DNA of 28,218 nt from the IMG/VR virus record IMGVR_UViG_3300044511_000147, positions 1-28,218 of that record; one strand, 5' to 3'. The position numbers were made by a program, and so were the translations under genes. The stretch is from a virus. Shown piece after piece: positions 5,790 to 23,533 of the stretch; the first letter of the stretch is position 1; each line of letters begins with the position of its first letter. The notes beneath the pieces are model-generated. The model was not told the DNA's origin and made no database searches. It saw only the letters and a list, made by a program, of their open reading frames with translations.

Positions 5790-5796
5790 ATAGATA
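5790..5796 (+). promoter_or_regulatory. Candidate late-type promoter box, ATAGATA
   Basis: ATAGATA lies 5 bases before the ATG at 5802, and no Shine-Dalgarno sequence is visible. The nine bases TAGATATTC are identical to those before the start at 13915. By analogy with T4-type late promoters (TATAAATA, start site a few bases downstream), transcription would begin at or next to the start codon. This is inference from position and similarity. Confidence 0.5.
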
Positions 5797-5801
5797 TTCC
5801 C

Positions 5802-6275
5802 ATGAAGTTCAGGAATTGGATGGAGGCCGAAGCCAGCATGGGCTCGAACATGCCCGACCTACTTGGGTCGATGCCTCCTAATAGGGGCACAGATACCCCC
5901 GCTTCAGATGAAGTGAAACGGACGGGCCTTCAACCACAGGTGGATGCGCAAGAAATCCACACAAAACAGAAGGACGAACAGGATAAGATCCTCGCCATCG
6001 ACGCCAGCATCGAGCGGCTCGACAAGGAAATCCCCAACGGCAAGGATGAGAAGACCCCGAAGGTTAATAAGTTCCGCGAGCTTTGGGACAAGCTGAAAGA
6101 GAAATGGGACCAATTGAAGATGGACGCCTCGGACTCCGATCAGGAGCCAGACGGCGACGGGGGCTTAGGCGATGCCCAAGACCCCGGTTATACCGATACA
6201 ATGCGGCAGTACCCGAATATGGTCCCCGCTCAGCAGAACTTGCCAGCGGGACCGGGCACGTTCGGCATGTCCTAA
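5802..6275 (+). CDS. Leader-bearing protein, possible head-internal cargo
   Basis: 157 residues starting MKFRNWMEAEASMG. The F-[KR]-x-[FW]-[LM] pattern followed by a hydrophobic-x-Glu site matches the leaders of four other proteins in this window and resembles the T4 internal-protein leader (MKTYQEFIAEA). After the leader come a Pro/Gly-rich segment, a charged helical stretch at about residues 50-105 (QKDEQDKILAIDASIERLDKEI, then ELWDKLKEKWDQLK) that looks like a coiled coil, and an acidic, Gly/Pro-rich tail. There is no Shine-Dalgarno site; ATAGATA lies 5 bases upstream. The stop overlaps the stop of the opposite-strand gene at 6272. Function is not established; virion packaging is inferred. 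Confidence 0.75.
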   Translation: MKFRNWMEAEASMGSNMPDLLGSMPPNRGTDTPASDEVKRTGLQPQVDAQEIHTKQKDEQDKILAIDASIERLDKEIPNGKDEKTPKVNKFRELWDKLKEKWDQLKMDASDSDQEPDGDGGLGDAQDPGYTDTMRQYPNMVPAQQNLPAGPGTFGMS

Positions 6276-6892
6276 GCAGCCGCTTTAGCGTCCAACCCTA
6301 GCTGGAGCTTGTACGCCTGCCTTAATGTCCGATAGCAAAGGCCGTCCGTATCCCAATTCTGACGAACCCAAACATCTTGATTCGGACCAGTCACCGACCA
6401 ACCCCGTTCTTTTAGAAAATCAGGTATCTTGTCGGATTCGTCCTTCTTGGCCTGACGAAGTTCCTTGTTCAAGGTGACGATGGCCTCCTCGATTGTCACA
6501 GAAGCTTCGCGGCCCTTGCGCCAACCCTTCTGGGTCAGCTTCCACTCATGGAGCAGGAGTTTGCGGGTCCACTTGTCATAGAGCCGGACCTGTTCCTTGT
6601 CAGCAGCGCGTTGCTTCTTGGCGTTGATTCGGCTCTGTCGGGCTTCGACCTTCGCGCATTTGCGTGCTCGCTTCTCTTCCGTCCGCTCGGCGTTCATCCG
6701 GGCGACTTCTTCGTCCGAGACATAGGTGACTGGTAGGTCCAACTGAGCCAGCCGGTGCTTGCGCTCGGCGCGGGCCTTGCGGTAGGCTTGACGCGATTCC
6801 TTCTTCGCCTTGAGAACGGCGGCTTGCAGACGCATCCGCTCCCACACCTTCGGGTGTACGACGAACGGCTTCTTTACTTTCTTCTTTGCCAT
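6272..6892 (-). CDS. Highly basic, helical hypothetical protein
   Basis: 206 residues, beginning MAKKKVKKPF, with a very high Lys/Arg content and an extended helix over about residues 15-130 (repeated Ala/Arg/Lys/Glu), probably a coiled coil. The C-terminal part (about 135-206) looks globular: EEAIVTLNKELRQAKKD, KERGWSV, DGLCYRTLRQAYKLQLG. Charge suggests nucleic-acid binding, but no named domain is visible. AGGAG precedes the ATG at good spacing. It is the last gene of the prkA-yeaH-spoVR array, 9 bases after the preceding gene, and meets the plus-strand gene at 5802-6275 with both stop codons sharing the bases CTAA. Confidence 0.75.
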   Translation of the reverse strand: MAKKKVKKPFVVHPKVWERMRLQAAVLKAKKESRQAYRKARAERKHRLAQLDLPVTYVSDEEVARMNAERTEEKRARKCAKVEARQSRINAKKQRAADKEQVRLYDKWTRKLLLHEWKLTQKGWRKGREASVTIEEAIVTLNKELRQAKKDESDKIPDFLKERGWSVTGPNQDVWVRQNWDTDGLCYRTLRQAYKLQLGLDAKAAA

Positions 6893-6901
6893 GAGAGGCT
6901 C

Positions 6902-7135
6902 CTATTCTGTAACCCGGACCCTCACCCCAAACGGGTAGAGCCAGTGCCATGTCTGTTCATCTTCGCAAGAGTCGATACCCTTCACTAAGATCTCGCCGTC
7001 GATTGCTTCTAAGTAAGTGCCATCAGGGATGTACTTGAAGTCCCTGTATGGACACAACATCAACACCCTTCGATTTACCGGCTTCTGATATGGTTTCCAG
7101 CCACGTTCCAGAAGGGTGCTGTAGTCGAATGTCAT
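6902..7135 (-). CDS. Small hypothetical protein downstream of spoVR
   Basis: 77 residues, MTFDYSTLLERGWKPYQKP and so on, with several Tyr/Trp and a beta-like pattern (DGTYLEAIDGEILVKGID). Its ATG overlaps the spoVR stop as ATGA, so translation is coupled. The compact composition and fit between spoVR and the basic protein gene support a real gene. No family is recognised. The many aromatic residues and the Asp/Glu-rich centre (DSCEDEQTWHW) are the only notable features. Confidence 0.7.
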   Translation of the reverse strand: MTFDYSTLLERGWKPYQKPVNRRVLMLCPYRDFKYIPDGTYLEAIDGEILVKGIDSCEDEQTWHWLYPFGVRVRVTE

Positions 7136-8733
7136 TTGAGAAATTCCTTCTCGTAATCCTCACGAGTCATGATGTGTACATCCTTCTCTGGGTTAGCCCC
7201 ATCGCAGATATATAGGTACTCAAGACCGTCTCTATTACGAGTCGCCAGCACAGTTACATCTTTCCACAGTCGGAAGATCGACGTAATCGTCTCCCGAGCG
7301 TAGCTATCGAAGAGTGGCCGACCATCCCACATGTGCTGCATGAAGAACCACCCCTTGCCCAAGTGATTCGGATCGGAAAGGCGGATGTCAGGCAGACCGC
7401 CGTTCAGGTAGCGTTGCAGGAGCTTCTTCTTGATCGTCTTGAAGTTCCTGTTCACAATCTTGTACTCGCCGTTCGGGAATCTTCGGTACTCGAAGAATTT
7501 CTTCTTCTCGCAGAATTCGGGCGTGAAGAACTCAGAGATGAGCGTGAAGTCGTTGTAATACTTCACTACTTCGAATATCTTCTGATGTCCGAGGCCGAGT
7601 TTCATGTCCCAATTCTCCTTCTTCTTCATATCCTTGCAGTTCTCCCACTCCGGGCCGAACTTGCCCTTGTTCCAGCGGTCACGGATGTCGAGCAGAAGCT
7701 CGAAGCCCAGCTTGTACGGGTTCTGGCTGTACTTACCGCCCAGCACGCGCATCTTGTGTTCGGCATAGTGCCAGATGCCAGCGTCTTCAGACTTCTGGCC
7801 GAGAGCGGCGAGACCTTGTTCACAGAGGATGTAGTGGTCGGCATAAGATGCAAAACCTTCGTTGATCATCTTGGTAGCGCGTTGTGGCGAGAAGTACATT
7901 GCCTCCTCATACAGCATGGAGATGATGTCCTGCTGCCACGGCTTCAACGGAGCATTGTCCTTGAGCCAGCAGAAGATGTCTTTGACCGGCCCCTCAAACA
8001 CGTCGAGGAACTGTGCCGCCTCCTTACGCTTGATGTCTTTCGTCTGCTTGTCGATGTACTCCTTCGGGTTGACCCACTCATCCATGTAGTTGTGGGTGGA
8101 GCGGAGCCGTTCGGCGAACTCGTAGTTTCGCTCATCCTTGACGACCGCCTGCTTGATCTTCTTCTTTCGCCACGCCTTAGCTGGGTCGATGAGGGTCTGG
8201 ATGCGGAGGCAGTGGTCGATGAACTCGGTAACGACTTCTGGACCCCAACGGGCCATGTATGCCCGGATGCGGGTGCCGTGGTTCGCCAACTTGTTCATCA
8301 TGTTTTCGTCAGTTGGCTCGAAGAAGATGTTATTCTTGAAAAAGTGGTTGTGCCCGATAGCGTGGGCAATCACGTCTACGTTGTCAACTAACGTGTTCGA
8401 GTCCATGCAATAGATGTAGCACGGATTGGTGTTGATCACCATTTCGCTGATGCGATACTGGTTGAACTCGTAGCCTCGGGCCAGTTCTTCGTACTCCATA
8501 CCCCACTGCCAGTGGGGATAGCGGACGGGAAAACCTCCATACGCGGCGAGTTCCGCCATTTCGTCGTAGGTTACAAACTCAACGATGATGGGGTAGTAAT
8601 CCATCCCCATCTTGTGACATGCCTCTTCGATCTGCGGAAGAACTTCCTTGACTTCCTTGTGCATCTTAAGGCCCGGAACGGTATTGTCGCCCTGTAGAAT
8701 GGGCGAACCGCTCATCATCTTAGATCTAGCCAT
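7132..8733 (-). CDS. spoVR: SpoVR family protein
   Basis: 533 residues, close to the usual length of SpoVR/YcgB (about 470-510). Recognisable family segments are YPHWQWGMEYEEL at 72-84, YRISEMVINTNPCYIYCM at 93-110, HAIGHNHFFKNNIFF at 124-138, and INEGFASYADHYIL around residue 290. SpoVR was named from Bacillus subtilis, where loss affects the spore cortex; in E. coli ycgB is linked to the yeaGH stress genes. Its biochemical role is unknown. Here it follows yeaH and a TPR/GT9-like gene in the same direction, with GAGGA before the ATG. The conserved pairing with PrkA and YeaH strongly supports the call. Confidence 0.95.
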   Translation of the reverse strand: MARSKMMSGSPILQGDNTVPGLKMHKEVKEVLPQIEEACHKMGMDYYPIIVEFVTYDEMAELAAYGGFPVRYPHWQWGMEYEELARGYEFNQYRISEMVINTNPCYIYCMDSNTLVDNVDVIAHAIGHNHFFKNNIFFEPTDENMMNKLANHGTRIRAYMARWGPEVVTEFIDHCLRIQTLIDPAKAWRKKKIKQAVVKDERNYEFAERLRSTHNYMDEWVNPKEYIDKQTKDIKRKEAAQFLDVFEGPVKDIFCWLKDNAPLKPWQQDIISMLYEEAMYFSPQRATKMINEGFASYADHYILCEQGLAALGQKSEDAGIWHYAEHKMRVLGGKYSQNPYKLGFELLLDIRDRWNKGKFGPEWENCKDMKKKENWDMKLGLGHQKIFEVVKYYNDFTLISEFFTPEFCEKKKFFEYRRFPNGEYKIVNRNFKTIKKKLLQRYLNGGLPDIRLSDPNHLGKGWFFMQHMWDGRPLFDSYARETITSIFRLWKDVTVLATRNRDGLEYLYICDGANPEKDVHIMTREDYEKEFLK

Positions 8734-8763
8734 AGTCCTCTATTCCTTATGATACCCCACATC

Positions 8764-9762
8764 TTACACTACAGACCGTAAAGACTCAAGCCTTTGTTTG
8801 ATCTGCCTAAGAGGGATGCTCCAATCCAAGTTCTCAGGTTGACGGAACAGTTCTACGCTTGGATACCAGACCGTAGAAGTCCCCAATCCCCAGCGAACGT
8901 CCGCGACATGCGGCAGCAGGCCAAGTGTCTTTTTGCCTAACGCGCCAGCTAGATGAAGCGTCACAGTGTCAACTGAAACTACAACATCGAGGTTGGAGAT
9001 GAGTTCGGCTGTATCAACCAGATCATTCAGTGCATACTGTACCATCATGTTGTAACGCTCTTTGTCGGGAATGACCGCGTACAACTCATTGATGCCGTCT
9101 TCAAGAATGGCAAACTCTTGGATGGGTACAGATTTCTTCGCCGAGATCGGGTTATCGGCATTGCTCTTCCAAGCAAGTCCGACCCGAAAGGCAGGTTCAC
9201 TGAACATCGCTGGAAACTCGGACAATACCGGTTGAGGGGGTATCGGCGTGTCCAGCAAAGCCTGCCAGTGGGCCGGATAATAGACATCGAACTTAAGTCC
9301 GTTCATCAGAGCCGGGATGCTCACGATGTTCGTGAAGTAATCACACTTCCGGTGCATCTGAACGAAATCGTCGATGTAATCAGGAAGCCTGCCCATCAGT
9401 CGAGCGAATTCAGCGTGAAACGCATAGTAGTTCACCACAATCCGACAAGACCAGCGTTCCTTCATCTGCTTCAAGTAACGGAGGATGTTGATGGTATCCC
9501 CCATGCCTTGATCGCAGAAGACTTCAATTGACTTACCGTTAAGAGGCTCCCCTCGCCAGAATGCGCCAAACTCTGGGTCTGGCTCAGGGGGCGAACCCCC
9601 AATGATCCTTGACATCATTCGGCGGGCAAGATCATTGTCAGGGTCGATCTTGCCGACCTGACCAATGACCTCGATGGCCTTGTTGAACCTACCCGTCCAG
9701 AGGTAGTTGTTCGCCATAGCCAATGCCTGTTTGATGAAGTTTCTAGCGAGATCAGCATCCAT
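8764..9762 (-). CDS. TPR protein with GT9-like glycosyltransferase domain
   Basis: 332 residues. Residues about 5-50 form TPR-like helices (ALAMANNYLWTGRFNKAIEVIG). The rest has the layout of TPR-linked, heptosyltransferase-like (GT9/GT41-type) proteins: GKSIEVFCDQGMGDTINILRYL near 75, FRVGLAWKSNADN near 192, and DTAELISNLDVVVSVDTVTLHLAGALGKKTLGLLP near 250. The last is the nucleotide-sugar-binding half with the conserved SVDT...HLAGALGK run. It is 1 base after yeaH and 30 before spoVR, so it is part of the same transcription unit. It may modify a protein or surface glycan; which sugar is unknown. An ADP-heptose donor would fit HldE in the window, but that is speculation. Confidence 0.8.
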   Translation of the reverse strand: MDADLARNFIKQALAMANNYLWTGRFNKAIEVIGQVGKIDPDNDLARRMMSRIIGGSPPEPDPEFGAFWRGEPLNGKSIEVFCDQGMGDTINILRYLKQMKERWSCRIVVNYYAFHAEFARLMGRLPDYIDDFVQMHRKCDYFTNIVSIPALMNGLKFDVYYPAHWQALLDTPIPPQPVLSEFPAMFSEPAFRVGLAWKSNADNPISAKKSVPIQEFAILEDGINELYAVIPDKERYNMMVQYALNDLVDTAELISNLDVVVSVDTVTLHLAGALGKKTLGLLPHVADVRWGLGTSTVWYPSVELFRQPENLDWSIPLRQIKQRLESLRSVV

Positions 9763-9763
9763 A

Positions 9764-11008
9764 TCACAACTCTAGGCCATGTGCGGCGCTTGCCTCCTTA
9801 GAGGAAAGCAACTTACGGATCGCGTCAATAATCTGCTGATTGCGATCATCCTCAGTCATGTTGGGGGCATAACCCCATCCGCTACTGAAGCCATCGCTGC
9901 TGTCCGTCTTTTCTTCTGGGCCGACATAAGCCGTCTTAACGAGATCAGCCGGGAGTTCACCCTTCTTGATTGCCTCGTCAATGTGCTGCTTGACGCTATC
10001 TTCGTAGCGCCACGAGCAGACCTGAGTGATGCCAATCATGTTGGCTACCGAGGGGCCGAGCTTTTCCTTCATGATCTTGACGATACGCTCGTTGTCGCCA
10101 TCCCAATTGTCTCCGTCAGAGAAGTAGAAGATGTAGACGTTGAACTTATCTGGCGGATACCTGTTGACCAGTTGCTCTGCGATAGCATCAAAAGCCGAGG
10201 AGCATTGTGTGCCGCCGCCGTAACGGTAGCTGTAGAACTTCTCCTCATTGACTTCTTCTGCGCGGGTATCATGGATGAAGTAACAACGATCTACTCGCTT
10301 GTAGAACTTCCTGATCCAGCAATCTAGCCACCAGCACATGTCGCTCACGATGTCGCAACGATAATCATCCATCGAACCAGAACAGTCACGAGCGAAGAAG
10401 ATCACGGCGTTGGACGACGGGATCTTAATCTCACGGTACTGACGATAGCGGAAGTCTGACTTGATCGGCGTGATGAGCTTGATCGGAACCCTCGACCCCG
10501 GAATATATGCTAAGGCATCATTCTGACCAGTCAGAGCACGTCGCTTCATCGCCTCCTTCATCGTGCGGCGGATATGACGCAGCGAATTGAGGCCGACCTT
10601 CGAGATGTCGTTGTACTTGATCTTAACTTCCTCGAATGTCTCGCTCGGCTTCGGCTTCATGTGCGGGAGCTTAAGCTCCTCTTCCATGAACTTGAGCACG
10701 TCGTCGAGATCGAGGGTAATCGTGATGCCTTCGCCCGGCTGGTCTCCTGCTCCTCCACCCTTCCCCGGTGGTGGGTCACGGCCAATAACATCACCGTCCT
10801 TCCCCGGACCCCTACCTACACCCTCCCCCGTATCACCAAATACGAAGTGGGGAATGTCGATTTGAGGAATGCTAATGGAAACCTTACCACCCTTCGGTCG
10901 CTGCCGGACGATGGCACCCGATTTGATAAGCCGCTTCAGTTCACGCCTGCTGCGGCCCGAGATCACATCTCGGAATTTCTTGTGGTCTTCTTGTATTCGC
11001 TTGGGCAT
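9764..11008 (-). CDS. yeaH: YeaH/DUF444 family protein (vWA-like)
   Basis: 414 residues, near the usual YeaH length of about 430. The N-terminal region is basic (RRELKRLIKSGAIV), followed by a Gly/Pro-rich linker at about 58-93. From about 195 a von Willebrand A-like domain begins, with the metal-binding motif D208-C-S-G-S212 in FFARDCSGSMDDY, the YGGGTQCSSAFDAI segment giving the threonine, and YFSDGDNWDGDN the last acidic loop. In bacteria YeaH is the partner of the kinase PrkA/YeaG and the two are induced in starvation and stationary phase. AAGGAGG is at optimal spacing before the ATG. A 9-bp hairpin lies between the prkA stop and this start. Confidence 0.95.
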   Translation of the reverse strand: MPKRIQEDHKKFRDVISGRSRRELKRLIKSGAIVRQRPKGGKVSISIPQIDIPHFVFGDTGEGVGRGPGKDGDVIGRDPPPGKGGGAGDQPGEGITITLDLDDVLKFMEEELKLPHMKPKPSETFEEVKIKYNDISKVGLNSLRHIRRTMKEAMKRRALTGQNDALAYIPGSRVPIKLITPIKSDFRYRQYREIKIPSSNAVIFFARDCSGSMDDYRCDIVSDMCWWLDCWIRKFYKRVDRCYFIHDTRAEEVNEEKFYSYRYGGGTQCSSAFDAIAEQLVNRYPPDKFNVYIFYFSDGDNWDGDNERIVKIMKEKLGPSVANMIGITQVCSWRYEDSVKQHIDEAIKKGELPADLVKTAYVGPEEKTDSSDGFSSGWGYAPNMTEDDRNQQIIDAIRKLLSSKEASAAHGLEL

Positions 11009-11033
11009 GATACCTCCTTAAGTATAGGTAGAT

Positions 11034-11061
11034 GGTGCGGTCCCTGAAATAAGACCGCACC
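11034..11061 (-). other. Hairpin between prkA and yeaH
   Basis: A perfect 9-bp inverted repeat, GGTGCGGTC and GACCGCACC, with a 10-base loop, sits in the 68-base gap between the prkA stop and the yeaH start. On the coding (minus) strand it is not followed by a T-run, so it looks more like an mRNA processing or stability element than a terminator. It could set different amounts of PrkA and YeaH. Confidence 0.55.
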
Positions 11062-11076
11062 CCTTACCATAGCCTC

Positions 11077-13197
11077 TTAGTTCGAGGTATCGCCTCTGGC
11101 GAAGATGCTGGACACATAGTCCAGAACGTCCGTCGCCGACTGTTGGTTGTACCCGTACTGCTTGATGAGTCGGGTCTTGATGGCGTCGATCTTCTCCTGC
11201 AACTCGGGATCGAGAGCAACGGCTTCCTTTGTCAAGGAGGCCAACTTCACCGTGTCCTTCACGTCCTCGAAGATCTTGGCTTCGAGGGCTCTCTTCAACT
11301 CAGGGTTACTGTCCCAGCGGAACGTCTTGCCACGAGTGGCGAGAGTACCGATGAAGGACGACAGAGAGCGGCGGAAGTCATCGCAGCCCTGTTCGGGGAT
11401 GCTGTTCTTCTCTTCGATGGATCGCATGAGTCTCTCATCCGGGTCCATCTTTTCCTTTGTGATGGGATGGATCATCTTCTCGTCGTTGACGTAAGCGATC
11501 ACGTTGTCAATGTACTTGGCGCACAGACGTTCGATGGCCTTCTCGTCGGCCACGAGAGCCCGCTGGACCTCATTCTTGAGGATCTCATCGAGTTCCTTGA
11601 CCGCCAGTTCAGCACAGAATTCGTAGTGCTTAATGTCTTCGACGTTTGTGATCAACGAGCAGTTCGTAAGACGAGACTTCAGTTCGCTCATCACATGGAA
11701 GACGTTGACGTACTGCTTGTTTCTTGCCAAGCAGTTGCTCAGGCCGTCCTGAATGTAACGGGCCGACAGACCACCCTTCATGCCTTCATCTGGGAACTTG
11801 TCCTGAAGCTCCTTCACAGTGTCCTGTGTCCAGCCGGGGAGTTCCCGACCATCGTAGAGCTTGGCCTTGTCCCGCAGATCGAGCTTGCCTTCGCCGTCGT
11901 CATGCAGACGTGTGAGAATGGCGAAAAGGGCCGCGATCTCCAGCGTGTGTGGCATGATGTGCTGACGCACCTTGCCGACACCGTAGTTCTGGTCGTAGAC
12001 CTTGATCTCATCGCTCCAGCGAGTGAGATAGGGCACGTCCACCTTGACCGTGCGGTCGCGGAGAGCTTCCATGAACTGGTTGTTCTTGAGCTTCTCGAAT
12101 TCTGGATTGTTGGTGTGGGCGATGATGAATTCATCGACGACAACCTGTGCAAACTTCTTCGGCTTGATCTGGTGCTCTTGGGAAGCACCGAGCAAATCGT
12201 ACAAGAAGGCGTTGTCCAACTTGAGCATTTCGATGAACTCGACGATGCCCCGGTTGCCGACCTCGAATTCGCCGTCATAGTTGAAGGCGCGAGGATCAGA
12301 ATCGGACCCGAAGTGGCCGATCTTGGAGAAGTCCATGTCACCAGTGAGTTCGGTGCTGTCTTGGTTCTTCTCGTCCTTTGGCTGGAAGGTGGCGATGCCA
12401 ACCCGGTCGATCTCAGAGTGAATTCTGCGAACGATGCGGATATGGTTTTGTACCACAGCCAACCAGTCGCCGTTGTGTCGCTTGAGCAGGCCGTTCATGA
12501 ACAGCTTGCAACGTGGGTTGAGTTCGCCTTCGCTGATCAACTCATACACGCCGTCGCGGTCTTCTTCAGAAACGCTGTCGGAAAGTGTCTTGTTCAGTTC
12601 GGCGAGGAACTCCTTTCTCATACCCATTGGCATGAGCTTGATGGGGTTCTCATTCATCGGGCACATGCAATCAGTGTTGATATACAGGGCTGGACCCTTC
12701 TCATCGTCTTTGATCGGCAGGTTGACCCACTTGAATGTGTACCACGCTCCAGCCGGTGTCTTGGAGTAGCGCTCCAAGCCTCTCTTCAAGAGGCGGCAAA
12801 TCGTGGACTTGGACGAACCGACCGGGCCGTGAAGTAAGAGAACACGGCGTTCTGTGCCGTAGTGCCCGGCAGCACCGTGGATGAAATCCACAAGATTGCT
12901 GAGAGTCTCTTCCAATCCGAAGATCGGAATCTCTTGGTCGTCGAAGAAATGGTACTTTGTGTACGTCTTTCTGTAACGCTCGAATTCGCTTGTGCCCTTC
13001 GATACCACCATGTCATAGACATACTGAAATGCGTTTCTGGCAAGCAGCGGGTTGAGCTTCATCCGCTGAACATATTCGGCGAAGCTCATTTCCTCGTTCA
13101 GCGACAGGAATTCGCTTCGATCATACAGTTCGGCGTATTTGCTGAGCACGTTCTCTTCTGTGACAACGTGCTTCTTCAATACATTCTCTTTCTCCAT
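11077..13197 (-). CDS. prkA: PrkA-type serine protein kinase
   Basis: 706 residues; bacterial PrkA/YeaG are about 630-645. The P-loop G124-P-V-G-S-S-K-S-T is a PrkA-type Walker A. Further family segments are GAWYTFKWVNL, then CPMNENPIKLMP, and FIIAHTNNPEFEKLKNNQFMEALRDR followed by VPYLTRWSDEIKVY around 360-400, which is the conserved AAA+ core of PrkA. The C-terminal third corresponds to the kinase-like part. PrkA is a cytoplasmic Ser kinase linked to starvation, biofilm and sporulation responses. The extra length is partly in the middle, around residues 245-300. The gene has a sigma70-like promoter at 13235-13263 and AGAAGGGG before the ATG, with an inverted repeat that could occlude it. 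Confidence 0.95.
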   Translation of the reverse strand: MEKENVLKKHVVTEENVLSKYAELYDRSEFLSLNEEMSFAEYVQRMKLNPLLARNAFQYVYDMVVSKGTSEFERYRKTYTKYHFFDDQEIPIFGLEETLSNLVDFIHGAAGHYGTERRVLLLHGPVGSSKSTICRLLKRGLERYSKTPAGAWYTFKWVNLPIKDDEKGPALYINTDCMCPMNENPIKLMPMGMRKEFLAELNKTLSDSVSEEDRDGVYELISEGELNPRCKLFMNGLLKRHNGDWLAVVQNHIRIVRRIHSEIDRVGIATFQPKDEKNQDSTELTGDMDFSKIGHFGSDSDPRAFNYDGEFEVGNRGIVEFIEMLKLDNAFLYDLLGASQEHQIKPKKFAQVVVDEFIIAHTNNPEFEKLKNNQFMEALRDRTVKVDVPYLTRWSDEIKVYDQNYGVGKVRQHIMPHTLEIAALFAILTRLHDDGEGKLDLRDKAKLYDGRELPGWTQDTVKELQDKFPDEGMKGGLSARYIQDGLSNCLARNKQYVNVFHVMSELKSRLTNCSLITNVEDIKHYEFCAELAVKELDEILKNEVQRALVADEKAIERLCAKYIDNVIAYVNDEKMIHPITKEKMDPDERLMRSIEEKNSIPEQGCDDFRRSLSSFIGTLATRGKTFRWDSNPELKRALEAKIFEDVKDTVKLASLTKEAVALDPELQEKIDAIKTRLIKQYGYNQQSATDVLDYVSSIFARGDTSN

Positions 13198-13301: not shown

Positions 13302-13538
13302 TTACTTTAAGAAGGTGGGTTTGGTCAGTGGGCCATTCACAGAAGCGATCTTCTGTGGGCGCGCTGGTAGAAGACCGCCACCCGCCTTTAACATGCGGGA
13401 AACCGAAGACCCCTTACCGCGAACAGGCTTGACGAGCTTGGCTTGAATCTTAATCAACTGAAGAGGGCCGGTGTTGGATTTGACGCCACCGTACAACCCT
13501 TCGAGTTCGTCGAGTTGTAGGAATTCCTTGAAGGTCAT
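13302..13538 (-). CDS. Small leader-bearing protein
   Basis: 78 residues beginning MTFKEFLQLDELEG. This leader is almost the same as MRFKEFLQFDE of the protein at 22540-22929, although the rest of the two proteins is unrelated. L9-D-E11 fits the hydrophobic-x-Glu pattern cleaved by T4-type prohead proteases. The remainder is basic and Gly/Pro-containing (IQAKLVKPVRGKGSSVSRMLKAGGG), consistent with a DNA-associated internal protein. The ATG overlaps the stop of the preceding leader-bearing gene (ATGA), so the two are co-translated. No enzyme motif is seen. Confidence 0.75.
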   Translation of the reverse strand: MTFKEFLQLDELEGLYGGVKSNTGPLQLIKIQAKLVKPVRGKGSSVSRMLKAGGGLLPARPQKIASVNGPLTKPTFLK

Positions 13539-13915
13539 TGCTGCCCCATCATCTTACGCATCCACCGCCGCATCATACGGACTTGGGTGGGCTTAGGGAG
13601 CTTTATGACTGGTGGCAGACCGAGGTTGGTTTGGATCGCAGATGCCACATTCGCCGCGTCCGTCTCTTTGCCCACACCGGGCAAAGACTTGACGGCTCTA
13701 GCACCAGCATCCATGAGAGACGTGTTCAACGCGGACTTGTGTTGGGTGCCTGTGTTCATCAAATTGCCAGCGATGTCGGCGTTATGAGGATTGGCGAGCC
13801 ATTTCTGGGCTACTTGCTGTGTAGCTTGGGCGGTCTGGGCAGGCGCATTGTCACGCATCCCGTCCGAACCGAGTTTGATTTCTTGCATCTGTAGCCATGT
13901 CTTGAATGCGCCCAT
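13535..13915 (-). CDS. Leader-bearing protein, possible head-internal cargo
   Basis: 126 residues starting MGAFKTWLQMQEIKLG. FKTWLQMQE lines up without gaps with FKEFLQLDE of the next gene. M10-Q-E12 is a possible cleavage site. The body is Ala/Gln-rich and helical (AQTAQATQQVAQKWLANPHN), and the C-terminus is strongly basic and Met/Arg-rich (TQVRMMRRWMRKMMGQQ). There is no Shine-Dalgarno site; CTAGATA lies 6 bases before the ATG. It is first in a two-gene unit downstream of an HNH gene. Function is unknown; virion packaging is inferred from leader and promoter type. Confidence 0.75.
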   Translation of the reverse strand: MGAFKTWLQMQEIKLGSDGMRDNAPAQTAQATQQVAQKWLANPHNADIAGNLMNTGTQHKSALNTSLMDAGARAVKSLPGVGKETDAANVASAIQTNLGLPPVIKLPKPTQVRMMRRWMRKMMGQQ

Positions 13916-13921: not shown

Positions 13922-13928
13922 TATCTAG
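13922..13928 (-). promoter_or_regulatory. Candidate late-type promoter box, CTAGATA
   Basis: CTAGATA is 6 bases before the ATG at 13915, in the 16-base gap after the HNH gene. TAGATATTC is shared with the plus-strand site at 5791-5799. No Shine-Dalgarno is present, so the mRNA may begin at the start codon. Confidence 0.55.
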
Positions 13929-13931: not shown

Positions 13932-14216
13932 CTACAGCCACTTTTCTTCGCCGTTCTCCCAGAAATGGAGAACCCAGCGACCCGTGGTGGACATGTACTT
14001 TCGGTCGAGGATGATCGCAGGATTCTCACCGTGGAGCTTGTTGTGACAGTTGGCGCAAACGGTGATCGTGTTGAACTCGGTATAGATGCCACCGTCCTCA
14101 CCGGGGAGGATGCGATGACAGTGGAGACAGTTATAATCACTCTCAGGACAGAAGTAGCACTTCCCGTCCATCTTCTTCTTTGCAACCTTATTGATCAGCA
14201 TCTTCTTCTTGGGCAT
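13932..14216 (-). CDS. HNH endonuclease
   Basis: 94 residues. After a basic N-terminus (MPKKKMLINKVAKKK), CYFCPESDYNCLHCHRILPGEDGG and FNTITVCANCHNKLHGEN form a zinc-bound HNH motif: Cys pairs, HR, then N and CxxCHxxLH. The short C-terminal region (KYMSTTGRWVLHFWENGEEKW) may help bind DNA. Free-standing HNH proteins of this size are common in phages, as homing endonucleases or packaging-associated nucleases. It has no terminase next to it, so homing is more likely. It lies directly upstream of a leader-bearing gene pair, as does the other HNH gene at 23530-24120. Confidence 0.85.
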   Translation of the reverse strand: MPKKKMLINKVAKKKMDGKCYFCPESDYNCLHCHRILPGEDGGIYTEFNTITVCANCHNKLHGENPAIILDRKYMSTTGRWVLHFWENGEEKWL

Positions 14217-14259: not shown

Positions 14260-14290
14260 TTGACAAGTTTGTCAGGGGGGTTAATATATA
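14260..14290 (+). promoter_or_regulatory. Promoter of the Cys-rich lipoprotein gene
   Basis: TTGACA at 14260-14265 is a perfect -35 box. The AT-rich run TTAATATATAAG at 14281-14292 holds several possible -10 boxes: TAATAT with a 16-base gap or TATATA with 19. It points to the plus-strand gene at 14319, which also has GGAGG at good spacing. The -35 box overlaps the palindrome at 14261-14274. Confidence 0.55.
14261..14274. promoter_or_regulatory. Palindromic operator candidate
   Basis: TGACAAGTTTGTCA has perfect 6-bp arms with a 2-base centre and covers most of the -35 box of the lipoprotein promoter. Such placement is typical of repressor sites. No regulator for it can be named from this window. 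Confidence 0.4.
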
Positions 14291-14318: not shown

Positions 14319-14534
14319 ATGCGAACGATTTTTGCTTCTGCTGTGCTAGCCGTTGCCCTGTGTTTCGCAGGGGCGGGCTGCCACAAGTGCGACTGCGGCG
14401 ACAAATGCCCTTGTCCCGCTTGCAAGTGCGTCAAGGACTGTCACTGCAAGACTGACGGCAAGTGCTGCTGCAACGGAACCTGCAAGCCAAAGTGCGATTG
14501 CAAGGAATGCTGCTGCAAGCCTGAAGCCAAGTGA
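14319..14534 (+). CDS. Cysteine-rich, metallothionein-like lipoprotein
   Basis: 71 residues. The N-terminus MRTIFASAVLAVALCFAGAGC is a signal peptide with a lipobox-like end (AGAGC), so Cys21 is probably lipidated. The mature part has 18 Cys in about 51 residues, in CxC, CC and CCC clusters spaced by Lys, Asp and Pro (KCDCGDKCPCPACKC, then GKCCCNG). There are almost no hydrophobic residues. This is metal-binding composition, as in metallothioneins, though no known subfamily is matched. It is a single-gene plus-strand unit between minus-strand genes, with its own promoter and GGAGG site. That is the pattern of a moron gene expressed on its own. A metal-scavenging or surface role is inferred. 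Confidence 0.75.
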   Translation: MRTIFASAVLAVALCFAGAGCHKCDCGDKCPCPACKCVKDCHCKTDGKCCCNGTCKPKCDCKECCCKPEAK

Positions 14535-17727: not shown

Positions 17728-18309
17728 CTAAGACTTGTCCTTCTGGGACTTCTCCAACCCTAGATACTTATCGGGATTCTCGACCAAATCCTTGAGGATG
17801 CCCTCGAATTTTTCCCGAGTCAACGAACCCTGCGGCGTATAAGGCTTCCGATGCGGCGCTGGCAACAGGATCACCTTTGTCAACCACAGAGCTTCTTCGA
17901 GCGTCGGCGTGCGAAAGCCCACGCATTCCGTCAGCATGGCGTGATCGTGGGGGTTGCCCTTCGGCTCCATCACTAAGACGACTGGCACGTTGAATGCCTT
18001 CGCCCACGCGATCTCCATGACCGTGCCGATGGAAACCTTCTTGGCTCCCAGCATGTTTGCCACGATCAGGTCGGCCCTACGACAGTCGTTATAATCACGG
18101 GCCGTGATGCCACGCCCCGAGGACAAAACGATGTGAGCGTAGTCCATCTTCAAATCCTGCTCGTGTTCGAGGTAATCCTTGCCCCGCATCGGGCTGAGGC
18201 CAACGATCTCCTTCGGGAGTTGGTCGATGAACCACTCGCGCCATTCGACGCAACCTTCAAAGCTGAGGCCCGTGATGGGGCCTGCCAGATATACTAGATG
18301 TTGTCGCAT
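17728..18309 (-). CDS. Nucleoside 2-deoxyribosyltransferase-like protein
   Basis: 193 residues starting MRQHLVYLAGPITGLSFEG, the typical N-terminus of this family (YLAGPI). RRADLIVANMLG and SIGTVMEIAWAKAFNVPVVLVM supply the substrate-binding Asp and the catalytic Glu of the 'GTxxEi..A' motif. The enzymes transfer deoxyribose between bases or hydrolyse nucleotides. The C-terminal 60 residues (LEEALWLTKVILL onward) are charged and may be a lid or linker. The start at 18309 overlaps the Nudix stop by one base (TGATG). The context of DHFR, ThyA and Nudix supports nucleotide salvage. Confidence 0.85.
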   Translation of the reverse strand: MRQHLVYLAGPITGLSFEGCVEWREWFIDQLPKEIVGLSPMRGKDYLEHEQDLKMDYAHIVLSSGRGITARDYNDCRRADLIVANMLGAKKVSIGTVMEIAWAKAFNVPVVLVMEPKGNPHDHAMLTECVGFRTPTLEEALWLTKVILLPAPHRKPYTPQGSLTREKFEGILKDLVENPDKYLGLEKSQKDKS

Positions 18310-18891: not shown

Positions 18892-19659
18892 CTAATCACA
18901 AAAGCTCTTGAGGGCATCAATGGCACCCCCGTTGTAGGTGATGGCCGAGGAGTAGTTAAGAGCGATGATCTTCTCATCTCTCTTAACATTCTCGAAGTCG
19001 GCTGCCGCCACACTGACTTCCACCGGAATCACCCTTCTTGTGCGAAAGACAACGCTCGTCGCACACAGGTCATACAGGGGCTCGAAGTAAGCTCGGAGCC
19101 GGTACATGTAAAGATGTAGCCAGACCAAGTGTCTATCTCCGAACAGGAAGTCTTGGTGGACTACCACACTGTCCTTCATCAAGCAAGGGAAAAACTCCCT
19201 TGCACAGTTGGCTACGAGCGGGGTTGTCTTCATTATGTCCACGAACAACCACTCGATAGGCTTGCCATTCCACTTGTGTTTACTTAAGTCTCCTTCGTGA
19301 ATCTCTAAGTGCTCTGACCAGTTCTTAGTATTCTCCTCGAACTGACCTCGGAAACTGACCCCGACGTTCATCCGCTGATCAGTCAGCCCCGACATGTATG
19401 GTTGCCAGATGAACTGATCGAACACCTGATACTTCTTATCCTTTGGCTGGCTAGCCATGCCTACCAGCGCCGGAATGGTTGAGGCTCCATACCAGCAGCC
19501 CAATTCCACCGCCTCACCCTTGCCACGGTACTCCGTCGTAAAGTAGTGATGGACGTAGCCCAACTCCTGATCCATCGTCATCTTCGGCACCGGGTCGGTC
19601 AGCCCCTTGACAGGGTTGTCGTGCCAAACCAACTGTGCCTTCTTAAAGCAGAACAGCAT
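18892..19659 (-). CDS. Class I methyltransferase-like protein
   Basis: 255 residues. GEAVELGCWYGASTIPALVG near residue 50 is a SAM-binding motif I (E-x-G-x-x-x-G). EIHEGDLSKH, IEWLFVDIMKTTPLVANCAREFFPCLMKDSVVVHQDFLF supply the post-motif acid and the central strand/helix. This resembles macrocin O-methyltransferase/Methyltransf_24-type proteins linked to sugar or glycan modification. CTAAATA lies 4 bases before the ATG and no Shine-Dalgarno is seen, unlike its downstream neighbours, so it probably starts a late transcript. Divergent from the small membrane-protein gene at 19753. Confidence 0.7.
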   Translation of the reverse strand: MLFCFKKAQLVWHDNPVKGLTDPVPKMTMDQELGYVHHYFTTEYRGKGEAVELGCWYGASTIPALVGMASQPKDKKYQVFDQFIWQPYMSGLTDQRMNVGVSFRGQFEENTKNWSEHLEIHEGDLSKHKWNGKPIEWLFVDIMKTTPLVANCAREFFPCLMKDSVVVHQDFLFGDRHLVWLHLYMYRLRAYFEPLYDLCATSVVFRTRRVIPVEVSVAAADFENVKRDEKIIALNYSSAITYNGGAIDALKSFCD

Positions 19660-19663: not shown

Positions 19664-19670
19664 TATTTAG
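19664..19670 (-). promoter_or_regulatory. Candidate late-type promoter box, CTAAATA
   Basis: CTAAATA followed by CCTC and the ATG at 19659. It is the closest of the set to T4-type late boxes (TATAAATA). Back to back with CTACATA at 19741, giving a divergent promoter pair 70 bases apart. Confidence 0.55.
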
Positions 19671-19740: not shown

Positions 19741-19747
19741 CTACATA
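19741..19747 (+). promoter_or_regulatory. Candidate late-type promoter box, CTACATA
   Basis: CTACATA lies 5 bases before the ATG at 19753, with no Shine-Dalgarno site. It differs at one base from the boxes at 13922, 19664 and 23527. Confidence 0.45.
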
Positions 19748-19752
19748 CCAAC

Positions 19753-19989
19753 ATGAGAGACACGATCATGTTCCTGCTGGGTTTTGCAATTCTGAGCTTC
19801 CTCTTCTGGTTCATCTGCTACGACTTCTATCTCGCAGCCACCAATCAAACCACACTGAGTATTATCGTTCGCCAGTGGGTCGCGGATCACCTACACCAGC
19901 CCCACATCTTGGTTGGGGCTGGTGTGATCATCGGCTTCGTTGTCGGCCTAGTGCTTGGGTTCATACTAGGCCATCTCTTCTGGACCTAA
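19753..19989 (+). CDS. Small two-helix membrane protein
   Basis: 78 residues. MRDTIMFLLGFAILSFLFWFICYDFYL is the first membrane helix; a 25-residue polar loop follows (TNQTTLSIIVRQWVADHLHQ), then a Gly-rich second helix (ILVGAGVIIGFVVGLVLGFILGHLFW) with Gly spacing that favours helix packing. Size and topology fit a holin-like protein, but no sequence family is recognised and there is no adjacent lysis enzyme. The frame is open upstream, but that part is the reverse of the methyltransferase gene. No Shine-Dalgarno; CTACATA is 5 bases upstream. Its stop overlaps the thyA stop within CTAA. Confidence 0.65.
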   Translation: MRDTIMFLLGFAILSFLFWFICYDFYLAATNQTTLSIIVRQWVADHLHQPHILVGAGVIIGFVVGLVLGFILGHLFWT

Positions 19990-21070: not shown

Positions 21071-21093
21071 CAGCGGGCTACCGCTGAGTTTTT
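21071..21093 (+). terminator. Rho-independent terminator-like hairpin
   Basis: CAGCGG, loop GCTA, CCGCTG, then AGTTTTT. The 6-bp stem and T-run are terminator-like on the plus strand, yet no plus-strand gene ends nearby. It would end a short leader or small RNA starting within the thyA upstream region. Confidence 0.5.
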
Positions 21094-21124: not shown

Positions 21125-21174
21125 AAGTTACTCGGACGGCGCGTCTTTGTCAAGGCGTTTTACTATGTTAAGGC

Positions 21175-21849
21175 ATGGTTACAGAAACGGGCGGCAGCCT
21201 ATCGGTGCTCATTATTACTGAATCCGATCAAAATTGGCAGACTTTCGCCACTTGGTACTCAATTTACAGAAACCTACCAGATGCGAAGGTTGCTTTAGTC
21301 TGCCACCGCAACGGCCAGACGCCGTTTGTCTACTTCCAATGGGCAAAGCGACTGAGCGTTCCCAGCGTCCACCGGAATCCGTTCAAGCACCAAGACAATA
21401 TCGAAAACCTCAATGTGCTAGCAGCAGTGAAAATGGCCCAAGACAGATCATACATCGGCGACACCATCTTAGTGATGAAACCTTTGACAATGGCAACATC
21501 TGCTTTCGATCAAAAATTCTTGGATCGTCTTAAGGAAAATAAGCTCTGGGTGAATGAGGAGATGTGGTTCCTCGACGAACAGAATGTCGCAGATCTTATC
21601 AACGCTTTCTACTTAGAAGACAAGCGGTTAGAATCAACAGAAGAGAGGCTATACGTGGAGGCCAAAGAAAGCAACGAGCCGTCGTGTCTGACGAGCTACA
21701 AGAAAGGATGTGGCAGATGGATAGATAGCGCAAAGGGTTGTCCATTTTCGAGTGCAGGTGGTCTCATCACCGAAGAGATGACCGTAAACGAAAATCGCGT
21801 CATAGAACTCTGGAAGAACATGGTTCCTTTGTACAATGCAGTAGTCTGA
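21175..21849 (+). CDS. Hypothetical protein, possibly GT-A-like fold
   Basis: 224 residues. The N-terminus (LSVLIITESDQNWQTFATWYSIYRNL, then PDAKVALVCHRNG) shows beta-alpha-beta order like the start of nucleotide-sugar transferases, and GDTILVMKPLTMA could take the place of a DxD-type loop, but no real DxD motif is seen. The C-terminal part is Cys-containing (PSCLTSYKKGCGRWIDSAKGC), which might bind metal. I do not recognise the family. There is no proper Shine-Dalgarno (TTAAGGC touches the ATG). The gene heads a plus-strand cluster running to 22554. Confidence 0.65.
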   Translation: MVTETGGSLSVLIITESDQNWQTFATWYSIYRNLPDAKVALVCHRNGQTPFVYFQWAKRLSVPSVHRNPFKHQDNIENLNVLAAVKMAQDRSYIGDTILVMKPLTMATSAFDQKFLDRLKENKLWVNEEMWFLDEQNVADLINAFYLEDKRLESTEERLYVEAKESNEPSCLTSYKKGCGRWIDSAKGCPFSSAGGLITEEMTVNENRVIELWKNMVPLYNAVV

Positions 21850-21856
21850 GGCTTAG

Positions 21857-22189: not shown

Positions 22190-22191
22190 CA

Positions 22192-22554
22192 ATGCCTTTC
22201 TACGAATTCCAATGCCAGAAGTGTAACCATAAGTACGACGAGCTATGCTCCTACGACGAAACTGGCAAATACCCCGACGTGAAGTGTCCCGAATGCGGGT
22301 CGAAGAAGAAGGATAAGCTGATCTCGAATTGCAGCTTCCAGTTCGCACAACCGGAAGGCACAGATAGGTGGAACAGCGACTCCACCGGCCACGATTACCG
22401 GTTCAAACACAACTTCCCAAAGGTAATGAAGGAAAGAGAAAAAGCTCAACAGGCGTCCCACATGGGGGCCAATCCCTACGGCGATACAAGTGAGGCAGAC
22501 ATTCAACTAGATACAGGCATCCATGACGCCGATTCAAGATCAGGTCTTTCTTGA
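22192..22554 (+). CDS. FmdB-type zinc ribbon protein
   Basis: 120 residues. MPFYEFQCQKCNHKYDE and VKCPECGSKKKDKLIS give the zinc ribbon C8-x-x-C11 and C32-x-x-C35 of the FmdB/CxxC_CxxC_SSSS family. FmdB-like proteins are putative transcriptional regulators; phage examples are common and uncharacterised. The C-terminal 70 residues are polar, with FKHNFPKVMKEREKAQ as a probable helix. GAGGAG lies before the ATG. The last 15 bases overlap the end of the minus-strand leader-bearing gene. Confidence 0.85.
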   Translation: MPFYEFQCQKCNHKYDELCSYDETGKYPDVKCPECGSKKKDKLISNCSFQFAQPEGTDRWNSDSTGHDYRFKHNFPKVMKEREKAQQASHMGANPYGDTSEADIQLDTGIHDADSRSGLS

Positions 22555-22929
22555 TCGTTTCATCCGCCGCCGCTTTTTGGCCGGTTCGCTTAGGGCATTG
22601 CCGATCTGATTGCCAATGTCCGCACCGGCCATGATGCCAAGCGTGTTGCCGAAGTTGCCAGCCCCTCGGGTCAAGAACCCGCCAGCCAGTCCACCCAACA
22701 AACCCCCAATAAGGCCCTCGTCCTGAGATTTATCAGCTTCACGAAGCTGTGGCACTTCATAGTGCTTCTTTTTCTTCTTGTTCCACTCGTACTCGTCAGG
22801 ATACATGTCCTCGACCTGATTCGAGCCCCAAACACGACGTACCATCGGTATACAGATACGGCTAAAGCCAGCAATATCTGCTGTCGAAGTACCTGTCTCA
22901 TCAAACTGTAGGAATTCTTTGAATCTCAT
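22540..22929 (-). CDS. Leader-bearing glycine-zipper protein
   Basis: 129 residues beginning MRFKEFLQFDETG; 9 of the first 11 residues match the leader at 13302-13538. F9-D-E11 is a possible cleavage site. The middle holds basic runs (EWNKKKKKHYEVPQ), followed by a Gly-zipper stretch (GLIGGLLGGLAGGFLTRGAGNFGNTLGIMAGADIG) that might insert into a membrane or pack helices, and a very basic end (KKRRRMKRSRKT). A longer upstream frame exists but lacks the leader and reads through the preceding gene in another frame. Second gene of a two-gene unit. A virion protein that enters with the DNA is a reasonable guess. Confidence 0.75.
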   Translation of the reverse strand: MRFKEFLQFDETGTSTADIAGFSRICIPMVRRVWGSNQVEDMYPDEYEWNKKKKKHYEVPQLREADKSQDEGLIGGLLGGLAGGFLTRGAGNFGNTLGIMAGADIGNQIGNALSEPAKKRRRMKRSRKT

Positions 22930-22936
22930 GGTGATC

Positions 22937-23521
22937 TCACATTGGAGGAGCGCCGCCCGGTGGTGCGCCGCCCGGAGGAGCCCCACCCGGAGGAGCGCCG
23001 CCCGGTGCTCCACCGGGTCCGCCCATTGCGCCCGGTTGGGCACCGCCCACCTTAGCGAACGGAACTACCATCATATCCTGTAGTTCTTCCTCGCCAACGA
23101 TGACGGTCTCGTCGTTCACGGGGCCGTTGTAGTACATTGGCCGCTCGCCCTTCTTATATGGGAGGGTAAACGACTTTGGCTCCATCAATTTCTTCTGTTT
23201 CAACTGATATGTCACGGAATAGTTCCCGTCTGGTCGCTTTTCCACCGACGCATCCACGGGACCACTAACCAAGTAACCCCACTTCGACGAGTAGTCTGGT
23301 ACTTGCCAGACTGTAATGCTATTGCCCTCAAGGGCAGCGGTCATGCCTTCGTCATCCATGCCGAGGCCCCGTTCGAGAGAATCGAAGTGGTGCTTGTTCG
23401 TTTTACTGTCCGGGTTGCCGGGGGCAGCAGGAGCACCGCCCATCGACGGAGCGGCCTCATCCTCTCGGATAGAGATGTTGATGGGGTGCCGTCTCATAAA
23501 CTCTCGAAATCTATGGGTCAT
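22937..23521 (-). CDS. Leader-bearing protein with Gly-Ala-Pro repeat tail
   Basis: 194 residues starting MTHRFREFMRRHPINISIREDE. FREFM matches FKEFL of the other leaders, and I18-R-E20 or a nearby Glu could be the cleavage site. A structured middle (MTAALEGNSITVWQVPDYSSKWGYLV, then GNYSVTYQLKQKKLMEPKSFTLPYKKGE) looks beta-rich. The C-terminus is a tandem repeat of GGAPP with a 15-base DNA period. CTAGATA lies 5 bases before the ATG, inside the end of the HNH gene; there is no Shine-Dalgarno site. It is first of two co-oriented leader-bearing genes. Confidence 0.75.
   Translation of the reverse strand: MTHRFREFMRRHPINISIREDEAAPSMGGAPAAPGNPDSKTNKHHFDSLERGLGMDDEGMTAALEGNSITVWQVPDYSSKWGYLVSGPVDASVEKRPDGNYSVTYQLKQKKLMEPKSFTLPYKKGERPMYYNGPVNDETVIVGEEELQDMMVVPFAKVGGAQPGAMGGPGGAPGGAPPGGAPPGGAPPGGAPPM
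22940..23020 (-). repeat. Tandem 15-base repeats encoding GGAPP
   Basis: Four or more near-identical copies of a GC-rich 15-base unit encode GGAPP, with silent differences (cccggaggagc, cccggtggtgc). The tail is Pro/Gly/Ala only and likely unstructured. Copy number could change by slippage. Confidence 0.8.
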
Positions 23522-23526
23522 GCAGT

Positions 23527-23533
23527 TATCTAG
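23527..23533 (-). promoter_or_regulatory. Candidate late-type promoter box, CTAGATA
   Basis: CTAGATA is 5 bases before the ATG at 23521; its TAG is the stop codon of the HNH gene at 23530. Same box and similar spacing as at 13922, in front of the other leader-bearing gene pair. Confidence 0.55.

Follow-up and report, generated by a model that had tools for sequence, protein, structure and literature searches.

The late promoters of phage T4 carry the box TATAAATA, which covers positions −13 to −6 according to the accessible part of one published account, where phage Aeh1 is also assigned a late consensus with C at −12 (PMC2988020). Leaderless mRNAs have been described for the Thermus phage phiYS40, most of whose middle and late mRNAs are without a leader according to a review (PMC3594737), and for Deinococcus-Thermus, where the available portion of the report places the −10 region of leaderless genes next to the ORF (PMC12340547).

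Here we describe boxes of the form [A/C]TANATA that abut start codons in an uncultured phage, represented by a 28,218-base fragment (IMG/VR record IMGVR_UViG_3300044511_000147; hereafter the window) and in related huge phages. These boxes resemble T4 late promoters in their core and in their register to the inferred start, in the presence of a (weakly assigned) gp55-like protein and in their location before virion-type genes. However, T4 boxes lie mostly 14–28 nt upstream of the gene, whereas those of the huge phages directly adjoin the ATG. Specifically, TATAAATA is found within 100 nt of 9 of 35 listed T4 late genes, at 14–28 nt (one also at 73) and never at 4–6. In addition, the fourth base of the huge-phage box is free, an A/T tract lies at −29 to −26 that is lacking there in 32 T4 boxes, T4 late promoters having no conserved −35 sequence, and, of the T4 trio gp55, gp33 and gp45, gp33 and the clamp are not detected by profile in the huge-phage records. 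The leaderless genes of Deinococcus-Thermus likewise have a promoter core directly 5′ of the ORF and leaderless mRNA (in the available portion of PMC12340547), but the core there is a cellular −10 element and not a phage late box. As in phiYS40, a DUF444-type gene adjoins SpoVR, although phiYS40 has no box–ATG arrangement (2 vs 1 reversed). In the open-licence literature, as far as its text was accessible, we recognized no description of start-fused T4-type late promoters.

Boxes and genes of the window

A first-pass annotation of the window had pointed to five boxes, each 4–6 nt 5′ of an ATG, and their positions and strands proved correct (Table 1). As it also held, Shine-Dalgarno sites are absent from these starts (the pattern flags 0 of 5), but it went too far in ascribing clear AGGAG sites to the majority of the remaining genes, given that the same pattern flags only 16 of 37 other starts listed by hand. 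Three CTA(N)ATA words, rather than two, lie away from the boxed starts, the one at 17760 (+) having been overlooked, and ATAGATA also occurs at 21721 (+) within a gene. An excess over shuffled sequence stood in mild form only: the window contains 7 CTANATA words where the mean is 3.7, and 8 of 100 shuffles yield at least as many. The signal is therefore one of position and not of number.

Table 1. Start-adjacent boxes, a candidate variant box and the associated genes in the window
Feature	Coordinates	Strand	Start codon (spacing)	Matrix score	Remarks
Box ATAGATA	5790..5796	+	ATG 5802 (5)	9.2	AAAA run ~16–19 nt 5′ of box
Box CTAGATA	13922..13928	−	ATG 13915 (6)	11.6	GAAAA upstream
Box CTAAATA	19664..19670	−	ATG 19659 (4)	7.1	Without clear A/T tract
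Box CTACATA	19741..19747	+	ATG 19753 (5)	7.9	A/T tract weak
Box CTAGATA	23527..23533	−	ATG 23521 (5)	10.0	Overlaps TAG stop of gene 23530–24120
Candidate variant box TTAAATA	24198..24204	+	GTG 24227 (22 nt downstream)	7.0	Leadered form, tentative
157-aa protein, capsid-targeting-type leader MKFRNWMEAEA	5802..6275	+			Behind 5790 box
126-aa leader-bearing protein (MGAFKTWLQMQE)	13535..13915	−			Behind 13922 box
78-aa leader-bearing protein (MTFKEFLQLDE)	13302..13538	−			Start overlaps end of gene 13535..13915 by 4 nt; without own box
255-aa methyltransferase-like protein	18892..19659	−			Behind 19664 box; without leader; PF13578 1.6e-4, below curated cut-off
78-aa hydrophobic protein	19753..19989	+			Behind 19741 box; without leader
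194-aa leader-bearing protein (MTHRFREFM)	22937..23521	−			Behind 23527 box
129-aa leader-bearing protein (MRFKEFLQFDE)	22540..22929	−			7 nt 3′ of gene 22937..23521
160-aa protein, leader-like N-terminus (FSKFRALMDIWDEYLLEQEDE)	24227..24709	+	GTG		Behind candidate box 24198

At 4–6 nt, [A/C]TANATA precedes 5 of 42 hand-listed starts (a list in which two ORFs are each entered with two alternative starts) against 0.025 expected. The corresponding Poisson value of 7e-11 was obtained post hoc within the window, from window-wide word density (11 [A/C]TANATA sites, both strands); what counts as evidence is not this value but the outcome in related records and, when the test was repeated, in further loci. 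A matrix trained on the relatives ranks the five boxes among the 11 best sites of the window (scores of at least 6.9; next 4.0), which lends weak support because the box dominates the matrix and all but one of the 11 top sites are simply [A/C]TANATA words. The top sites include four within genes (7208+, 7209−, 21721+ and 22507+), and the matrix site at 14284 (+) is probably a sigma70 promoter.

Two of the boxed window genes belong to families in which the box recurs, namely that of the 157-aa protein (5 of 8 members) and that of the 194-aa protein (8 of 10 members). The gene for the 129-aa protein is probably co-transcribed with that for the 194-aa protein.

Enrichment in related huge phages

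In the main test set, made up of 15 related records plus the window itself, the pattern ATA.ATA lies 4–6 nt before the ATG of 107 genes (4.0 expected) and CTA.ATA before that of 83 (2.5 expected). These patterns rank first and second of 4096 gapped hexamers, above the Shine-Dalgarno patterns. The expected numbers, here and for the 42 window starts, come from genome-wide word frequency and thus ignore the AT-richness of upstream regions. A comparison within the same intergenic stretches does allow for it, and there the box occurs 147 times at 4–6 nt, whereas AT-rich words built from the same letters in other orders occur 4, 5 and 24 times; given that ATANATA is identical when reversed, the reversed row of this comparison overlaps the box and is not clean, and the other letter orders are cleaner. 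Before 2860 starts, box words were counted 210 times at 4–8 nt (61, 83, 29, 19 and 18) vs 22 times at 10–14 nt. Because our simple ORF caller overlooked the window genes 13535–13915 and 19753–19989, the automatic counts include three of the five window boxes.

Further loci gave 203 start-adjacent boxes vs 47 reversed, and a second, new set of loci repeated the enrichment (of 70 locus numbers, 3 had been used before and were left out, and removal of near-duplicates reduced the other 67 to 36). The box is also common to homologs, being shared by 98 pairs vs a mean of 17 and a maximum of 32 in 1000 within-genome shuffles, which ignore close DNA similarity between some contigs. The enrichment is weak in G001 (12 vs 11 reversed in one count, 20 vs 5 in another), and G008 had no match in the former count. 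Thus, the motif is more common before starts than elsewhere, as had been proposed, strongly so in the 16 records and again in further loci. The start-adjacent box is real and general in this group of huge phages.

Intergenic stretches are AT-rich, which together with the mild word count in the window might suggest that AT-rich words simply fall near starts by chance. We give this explanation practically no credence, since the signal is specific to spacing and letter order, is repeated in further loci and is common to homologs, and since eleven named T4-like phages together have no start-adjacent excess (75 vs 119 reversed). Among other named phages, small excesses were found for Mosig (9 vs 4) and OC (6 vs 3) and none for the rest. 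LR756502 (129 vs 45 reversed), LR745206 (126 vs 50) and LR756504 (102 vs 46) do exhibit an excess, but they were not counted as the same system because the 4–6 nt peak in 400 kb of LR756502 consists of ATANATA and TATATA, not CTANATA or TAAATA. We name no host for the huge phages, given that GlpX relatives are scattered across several phyla.

Probable promoter architecture and the candidate sigma factor

With a spacing of 5, [A/C]TANATA covers −12 to −6 counted from the A of the ATG. At this spacing both consensus and register match those of T4, which supports the proposed identity as a T4-type late box. Among 164 box genes with spacing 4–5, the base at −1 is a pyrimidine in 94%, vs 46% of 807 Shine-Dalgarno genes, and the A+T fraction at −29 to −26 is 0.82–0.87, vs 0.57–0.61. 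The box therefore looks like a promoter whose transcripts would begin with the A of the ATG. With the box in T4-late position against the start codon, the messages of these genes probably begin at that codon and would be leaderless, without a ribosome-landing site; the two features that point to a 5′ end there are the T4 register and the −1 pyrimidine. Shine-Dalgarno sites are rarer where a box lies at 4–8 nt (2% of 184 genes) than where it is absent (35% of 2435 genes), in part trivially so, since the box itself takes up that stretch.

The same occupancy of the Shine-Dalgarno place would be compatible with a box that acts in translation initiation, on ordinary leadered mRNAs transcribed from promoters farther upstream, as would the fact that 37 of 189 boxes are no more than 30 nt away from the end of a preceding gene on the same strand. 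We consider this quite improbable, given that the −1 pyrimidine and the A/T tract resemble promoter features that Shine-Dalgarno genes lack, that the register equals that of the T4 late promoter and that the 189 boxes have 84 divergent neighbours whose starts are at most 150 nt distant. The codon after the box is ATG in 203 cases, GTG in 44 and TTG in 43, near control patterns (29–50 and 97–163). Non-ATG codons make up 17% (112 of 642) of starts with Shine-Dalgarno sites, and the same rate would add about 25 to the box set, too few to exclude.

The A/T tract recurs in a possible leadered form with the box 15–40 nt upstream, for which same-strand matrix matches are only modestly above those on the opposite strand, and many of them are therefore background. 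Upstream of gp17 in W01 and G003, ATATATA is found at 24 and 32 nt.

A late sigma factor would not be involved if the box instead served the host's sigma70-type factor as a −10 element, in leaderless genes with early or constitutive expression, a reading that we judge unlikely. The enriched hexamers 4–5 nt before starts are TAAATA and TATATA, the first base is A or C and the fourth is free, which is close to boxes of the T4 and Aeh1 types, and the base table contains the A/T tract in place of a TTGACA-like −35 element; the association of boxes with T4-type leaders and gp13 (see below) also argues against it. Nevertheless, there is a weak excess of TATAAT 5–6 nt before ATG (14 and 9 vs ~4 elsewhere), and thus leaderless sigma70 genes may exist as well (gp47 and uvsW, by eye). 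Some box genes are not late-type, and the gp55-like relative is weakly assigned.

As for a gp55-like late sigma factor, which the first-pass annotation had proposed to look for, a family of relatives is conserved in related genomes, but its assignment is weak, with an hhalign probability of 1.2% against T4 gp55. The relative is present in W01, G001, G002, G003, G017, G018 and G019; searches of G015, G016, G020, W09 and W10 found no member of the family, and W11 gave a weak match (7.7e-5). The late-sigma PHROG matches G002 (6.6e-8), W01 (3.1e-7) and G003 (1.1e-6) and has no match in G001. A general phage sigma profile matches all four, with a better E-value than the late-sigma PHROG in W01 and G001. 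The late-sigma profile also matches 7 of 14 control genomes at E <= 1 and misses 12 of 15 related records, many of which are fragments. Profiles for gp33 and gp45 had no match in 8 phage records, several of them fragments, with a positive T4 control, and divergence beyond the reach of the profiles is possible; a DnaN profile had no match in four phage records or in T4.

Leader-bearing genes and a model of late expression

A T4-type leader is present in 92 of 189 box genes vs 139 of 2818 others (a box at 7 nt excluded a gene from both groups), and thus the suspected link of the boxes to leader-bearing genes holds. This N-terminal F-x-x-[FWY] leader resembles the capsid-targeting sequence of T4, of which only that of ipI (MKTFKEF) was compared. 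However, a pattern search finds 25–36 leader genes in each of four large genomes, 53 of 121 with a box at 4–7 nt, and packaging and cleavage of their products are predictions.

Homologs of gp13 are boxed in all three genomes where phmmer found them. Start-adjacent [A/C]TANATA is absent at gp18, gp20, gp21 and gp23, the best-known late genes; a gp21 protease homolog was found by phmmer in W01, G001, G002 and G003. In W01, the replication gene for the gp41 helicase has CTAAATA 9 nt before its ATG. Of the 130 box genes in four genomes, PHROG and Pfam scans covered 121 (7 that cross a piece boundary and 2 of at least 1500 residues were left out), along with 121 random unboxed genes for comparison. 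Among the families listed (the first 25 of 42 and of 40), box-gene matches include proteases, gp13, endolysin, virion proteins, nudix proteins, methyltransferases, a RusA-type resolvase and a tRNA nucleotidyltransferase. Judged by these predicted functions, the box genes are not a purely structural set.

We consider it likely that the boxes are T4-type late promoters fused to start codons, served by host polymerase with a gp55-like sigma factor, that yield leaderless mRNAs preferentially for leader genes. The mechanism we infer builds on the computed box, its position, composition, conservation and leader association, and on the presence of the sigma relative. The consensus [A/C]TANATA, with an A/T tract ~14–18 bases before it, would constitute a T4-type late promoter, read late in infection by host RNA polymerase carrying the phage sigma. 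From many of these boxes transcription would start at the A of the ATG (spacing 4–5) or within ~2 nt of it (spacing 6), and the leaderless mRNAs would be translated via recognition of the 5′-terminal AUG. Boxes would preferentially drive genes with capsid-targeting-type leaders, whose products are predicted to be packed into the head, but also gp13 and others.

A more far-reaching proposal, which we offer tentatively and regard as slightly more apt to be wrong than right, is that the fused box forms a dedicated leaderless channel for many head-packaged, injected-type proteins, in which the sigma factor would act without gp33 or the clamp and use the upstream A/T tract instead, and ribosomes would be shifted late in infection to initiation at 5′-AUG. 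The arrangement raises the question of how a gp55-type sigma functions where clamp and co-activator are not detected. It would join T4-type late promotion with leaderless mRNA, which are described apart in the accessible parts of the literature. For uncultured huge phages, the box may provide both a sequence rule, open to testing, for the control of late genes and a marker for probable packaged proteins.

Start-adjacent boxes in the window and in related phages

All five of the [A/C]TANATA boxes, which resemble the T4 late promoter, were recovered where the first-pass annotation had placed them, and their spacings to the ATG lie within the 4-6 nt it gave (table). Among hand-listed window starts, 5 of 42 carry such a box at 4-6 nt, where 0.025 would be expected. 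The same annotation had counted only two other CTA(N)ATA occurrences, and a further CTANATA was overlooked.

Features in the window
Feature	Position	Strand	Remark
Box	5790		spacing 5; leader gene start 5802
Box	13922		spacing 6; leader gene start 13915
Box	19664		spacing 4; gene without leader
Box	19741		spacing 5; gene without leader
Box	23527		spacing 5; leader gene start 23521
Overlooked CTANATA	17760	plus
Leader-bearing proteins, five in total	5802-6275	plus	capsid-targeting-type
	13302-13915	minus	capsid-targeting-type
	22540-23521	minus	capsid-targeting-type
SpoVR and DUF444 genes with PrkA-like gene (by eye), one stretch	7132-13197	minus
HNH gene	13932-14216	minus	directly 5' of boxed leader gene
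HNH-type gene (by eye)	23530-24120	minus	directly 5' of boxed leader gene
Sigma70-like promoter (by eye)	14260-14288	plus	TTGACA-N17-AATATA
Cys-rich lipoprotein-like gene	14319-14534		3' of sigma70-like promoter; Shine-Dalgarno site
T4 gp4-type head-closure gene	25123-25857		phrog_218, 7.3e-23

The window, an IMG/VR virus record of 28,218 bases that also carries a thymidylate synthase gene, is probably a fragment of a genome whose relatives are large to huge phages. Relatives were found through the gp4-type protein (13 loci), a gp4 alignment (126, of which the best 80 were kept) and the DUF444 protein (7 loci), and LR756511 (595 kb) is another. A DUF444-type gene adjoins SpoVR in Thermus phage phiYS40 too.

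The first-pass annotation proposed comparing the motif before starts with its occurrence elsewhere. We fetched 15 related records totalling 2.56 Mb, predicted their ORFs by means of a basic script, which gave 3025 genes once the window was included, and ranked gapped hexamers by their presence 4-6 nt upstream of candidate ATGs. Of 4096 patterns in the 16 records, ATA.ATA ranked first (107 genes versus 4.0 expected) and CTA.ATA second (83 versus 2.5), with Shine-Dalgarno patterns below both when all records were pooled. By record, CTA.ATA ranks first in G002 and second in W01 and G003; in G001 it drops to eighth and ATA.ATA leads. A count made without gene calls gave a clear CTANATA peak at 4-5 nt in G002, W01 and G003, and no plain peak there in G001. 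Across 2860 starts, [A/C]TANATA occurs 61, 83, 29, 19 and 18 times at spacings 4, 5, 6, 7 and 8, and 22 times at 10-14 nt.

Box-ATG matches exceeded those of the reversed pattern in G002 (35 versus 0), G003 (38 versus 4), G001 (20 versus 5) and W01 (50 versus 3); an earlier, narrower search gave 12 versus 11 in G001 and no match in G008. A box followed by YATG was then counted in new loci (36 after de-duplication; 592 kb): there were 19 at spacing 4, 32 at spacing 5, and between 3 and 8 at any other spacing tested. Twenty-two further records, which are not all independent because several share hits, gave 203 matches versus 47 reversed at spacings 5-6 (G015, one of these: 16 versus 13). Pooling eleven named T4-like phages (T4, Phosso, Atu_ph07, PAU, PA5oct, OC, P-SSM2, Syn9, KVP40, Aeh1 and CBB) gave 75 versus 119 reversed. 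The box arrangement is real and general in this clade. Three phages of ~635-640 kb (LR756502, LR745206 and LR756504) also exhibit a box-ATG excess, which in LR756502 is of ATANATA and not CTANATA; theirs is perhaps another leaderless promoter class.

Register of the box relative to the start codon

Among 164 genes with the box at spacing 4-5, 94% have a pyrimidine immediately before the ATG, versus 46% of 807 Shine-Dalgarno genes (A, 42%), and at spacing 6 an A occupies -2 in 64% of 25 genes. Box genes also exhibit an A/T tract at -29 to -26 (A+T 0.82-0.87) that was not seen upstream of other genes. The T4 late box is described as lying about one turn upstream of the transcription start, with its first base at -13, and that of Aeh1 as having its C at -12 (PMC2988020); by this description, a box at spacing 5 sits in the T4 register. 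Unlike the present clade, T4 has a box at 4-6 nt in 0 of 35 listed late genes; 9 of these have TATAAATA within 100 nt upstream, at a distance of 14-28 nt, with one additional occurrence at 73 nt. The sequence data strongly indicate that the boxes are promoters whose start is the ATG.

Fifteen of the 189 boxes in the pooled records contain the stop codon of an upstream same-strand gene, and in the window the stop codons of the HNH gene and the HNH-type gene are abutted or overlapped by the next gene's box. The box weight matrix trained on relatives also scores the sigma70-like element as a box.

By eye, a TATAAT-like element lies 6-7 nt upstream of the uvsW and gp47 ATGs in relatives, and TATAAT exhibits a weak general excess at 5-6 nt before starts; leaderless mRNAs may exist for some early genes too. 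IF3 homologs are encoded by W01 (325993-326250, minus) and G001 (140741-140992, plus), and were not found in G002, G003 or T4. These are of interest because IF3 levels are reported to bear on leaderless translation (PMC3594737).

Genes behind the boxes

An F-x-x-[FWY]-hydrophobic leader near the N-terminus, of the type of T4 ipI (MKTFKEF), occurs in 92 of 189 genes with a box at 4-6 nt versus 139 of 2818 without (Fisher 2.8e-58). The three window boxes said to precede leader genes do so, and the leader genes starting at 13538 and 22929 lie head to tail behind two of these genes. By our own pattern, each of four large relatives has 25-36 leader genes, and a gp21 protease homolog was found in four large genomes. 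The leader genes may thus encode numerous internal proteins that are packaged.

Both members of a homolog pair are boxed in 98 cases (mean 17, maximum 32 in 1000 within-genome shuffles), as are 8 of 10 members of the family of window gene 22937-23521 and gp13 in all three genomes where it was found. Several observations do not fit a simple late-promoter account. PHROG matches of box genes are of mixed functions. In relatives, gp18, gp20, gp21 and gp23 lack a start-adjacent [A/C]TANATA box; gp20 and gp17, behind a AATTAGAAAGG-like leader, are core late genes without one. By eye, this type of leader recurs upstream of both in W01, G002, G003 and G004. TTAAATA precedes the ATG of G001 gp23 by 2 nt and gp17 by 8 nt, and CTAAATA that of the W01 gp41 helicase by 9 nt.

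A candidate sigma factor and the late-promoter reading

A sigma-relative family (177-180 aa, 53-84% identical) is present in G001, G002, G003 and W01; a profile search found it also in G017, G018 and G019, weakly in W11, and not in G015, G016, G020, W09 or W10. A general phage sigma profile matches all four initial members. As to the gp55-like late sigma factor suggested for a search, the PHROG late-sigma profile matches three of the four (6.6e-8, 3.1e-7 and 1.1e-6), and comparison with T4 gp55 alone gave a probability of 1.2%. Profiles of gp33, gp45 and DnaN had no match in these related phages. Given that a review credits T4-related jumbo phages with sigma factors and a gp33 ortholog (PMC7824862), the non-detection of gp33 may reflect divergence.

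Both the late class of the box promoters and their pairing with the sigma relative are moderately supported. On the preferred interpretation the boxes are late promoters of T4 type, fused to the start codons, and leaderless translation of the box-gene mRNAs follows by inference.
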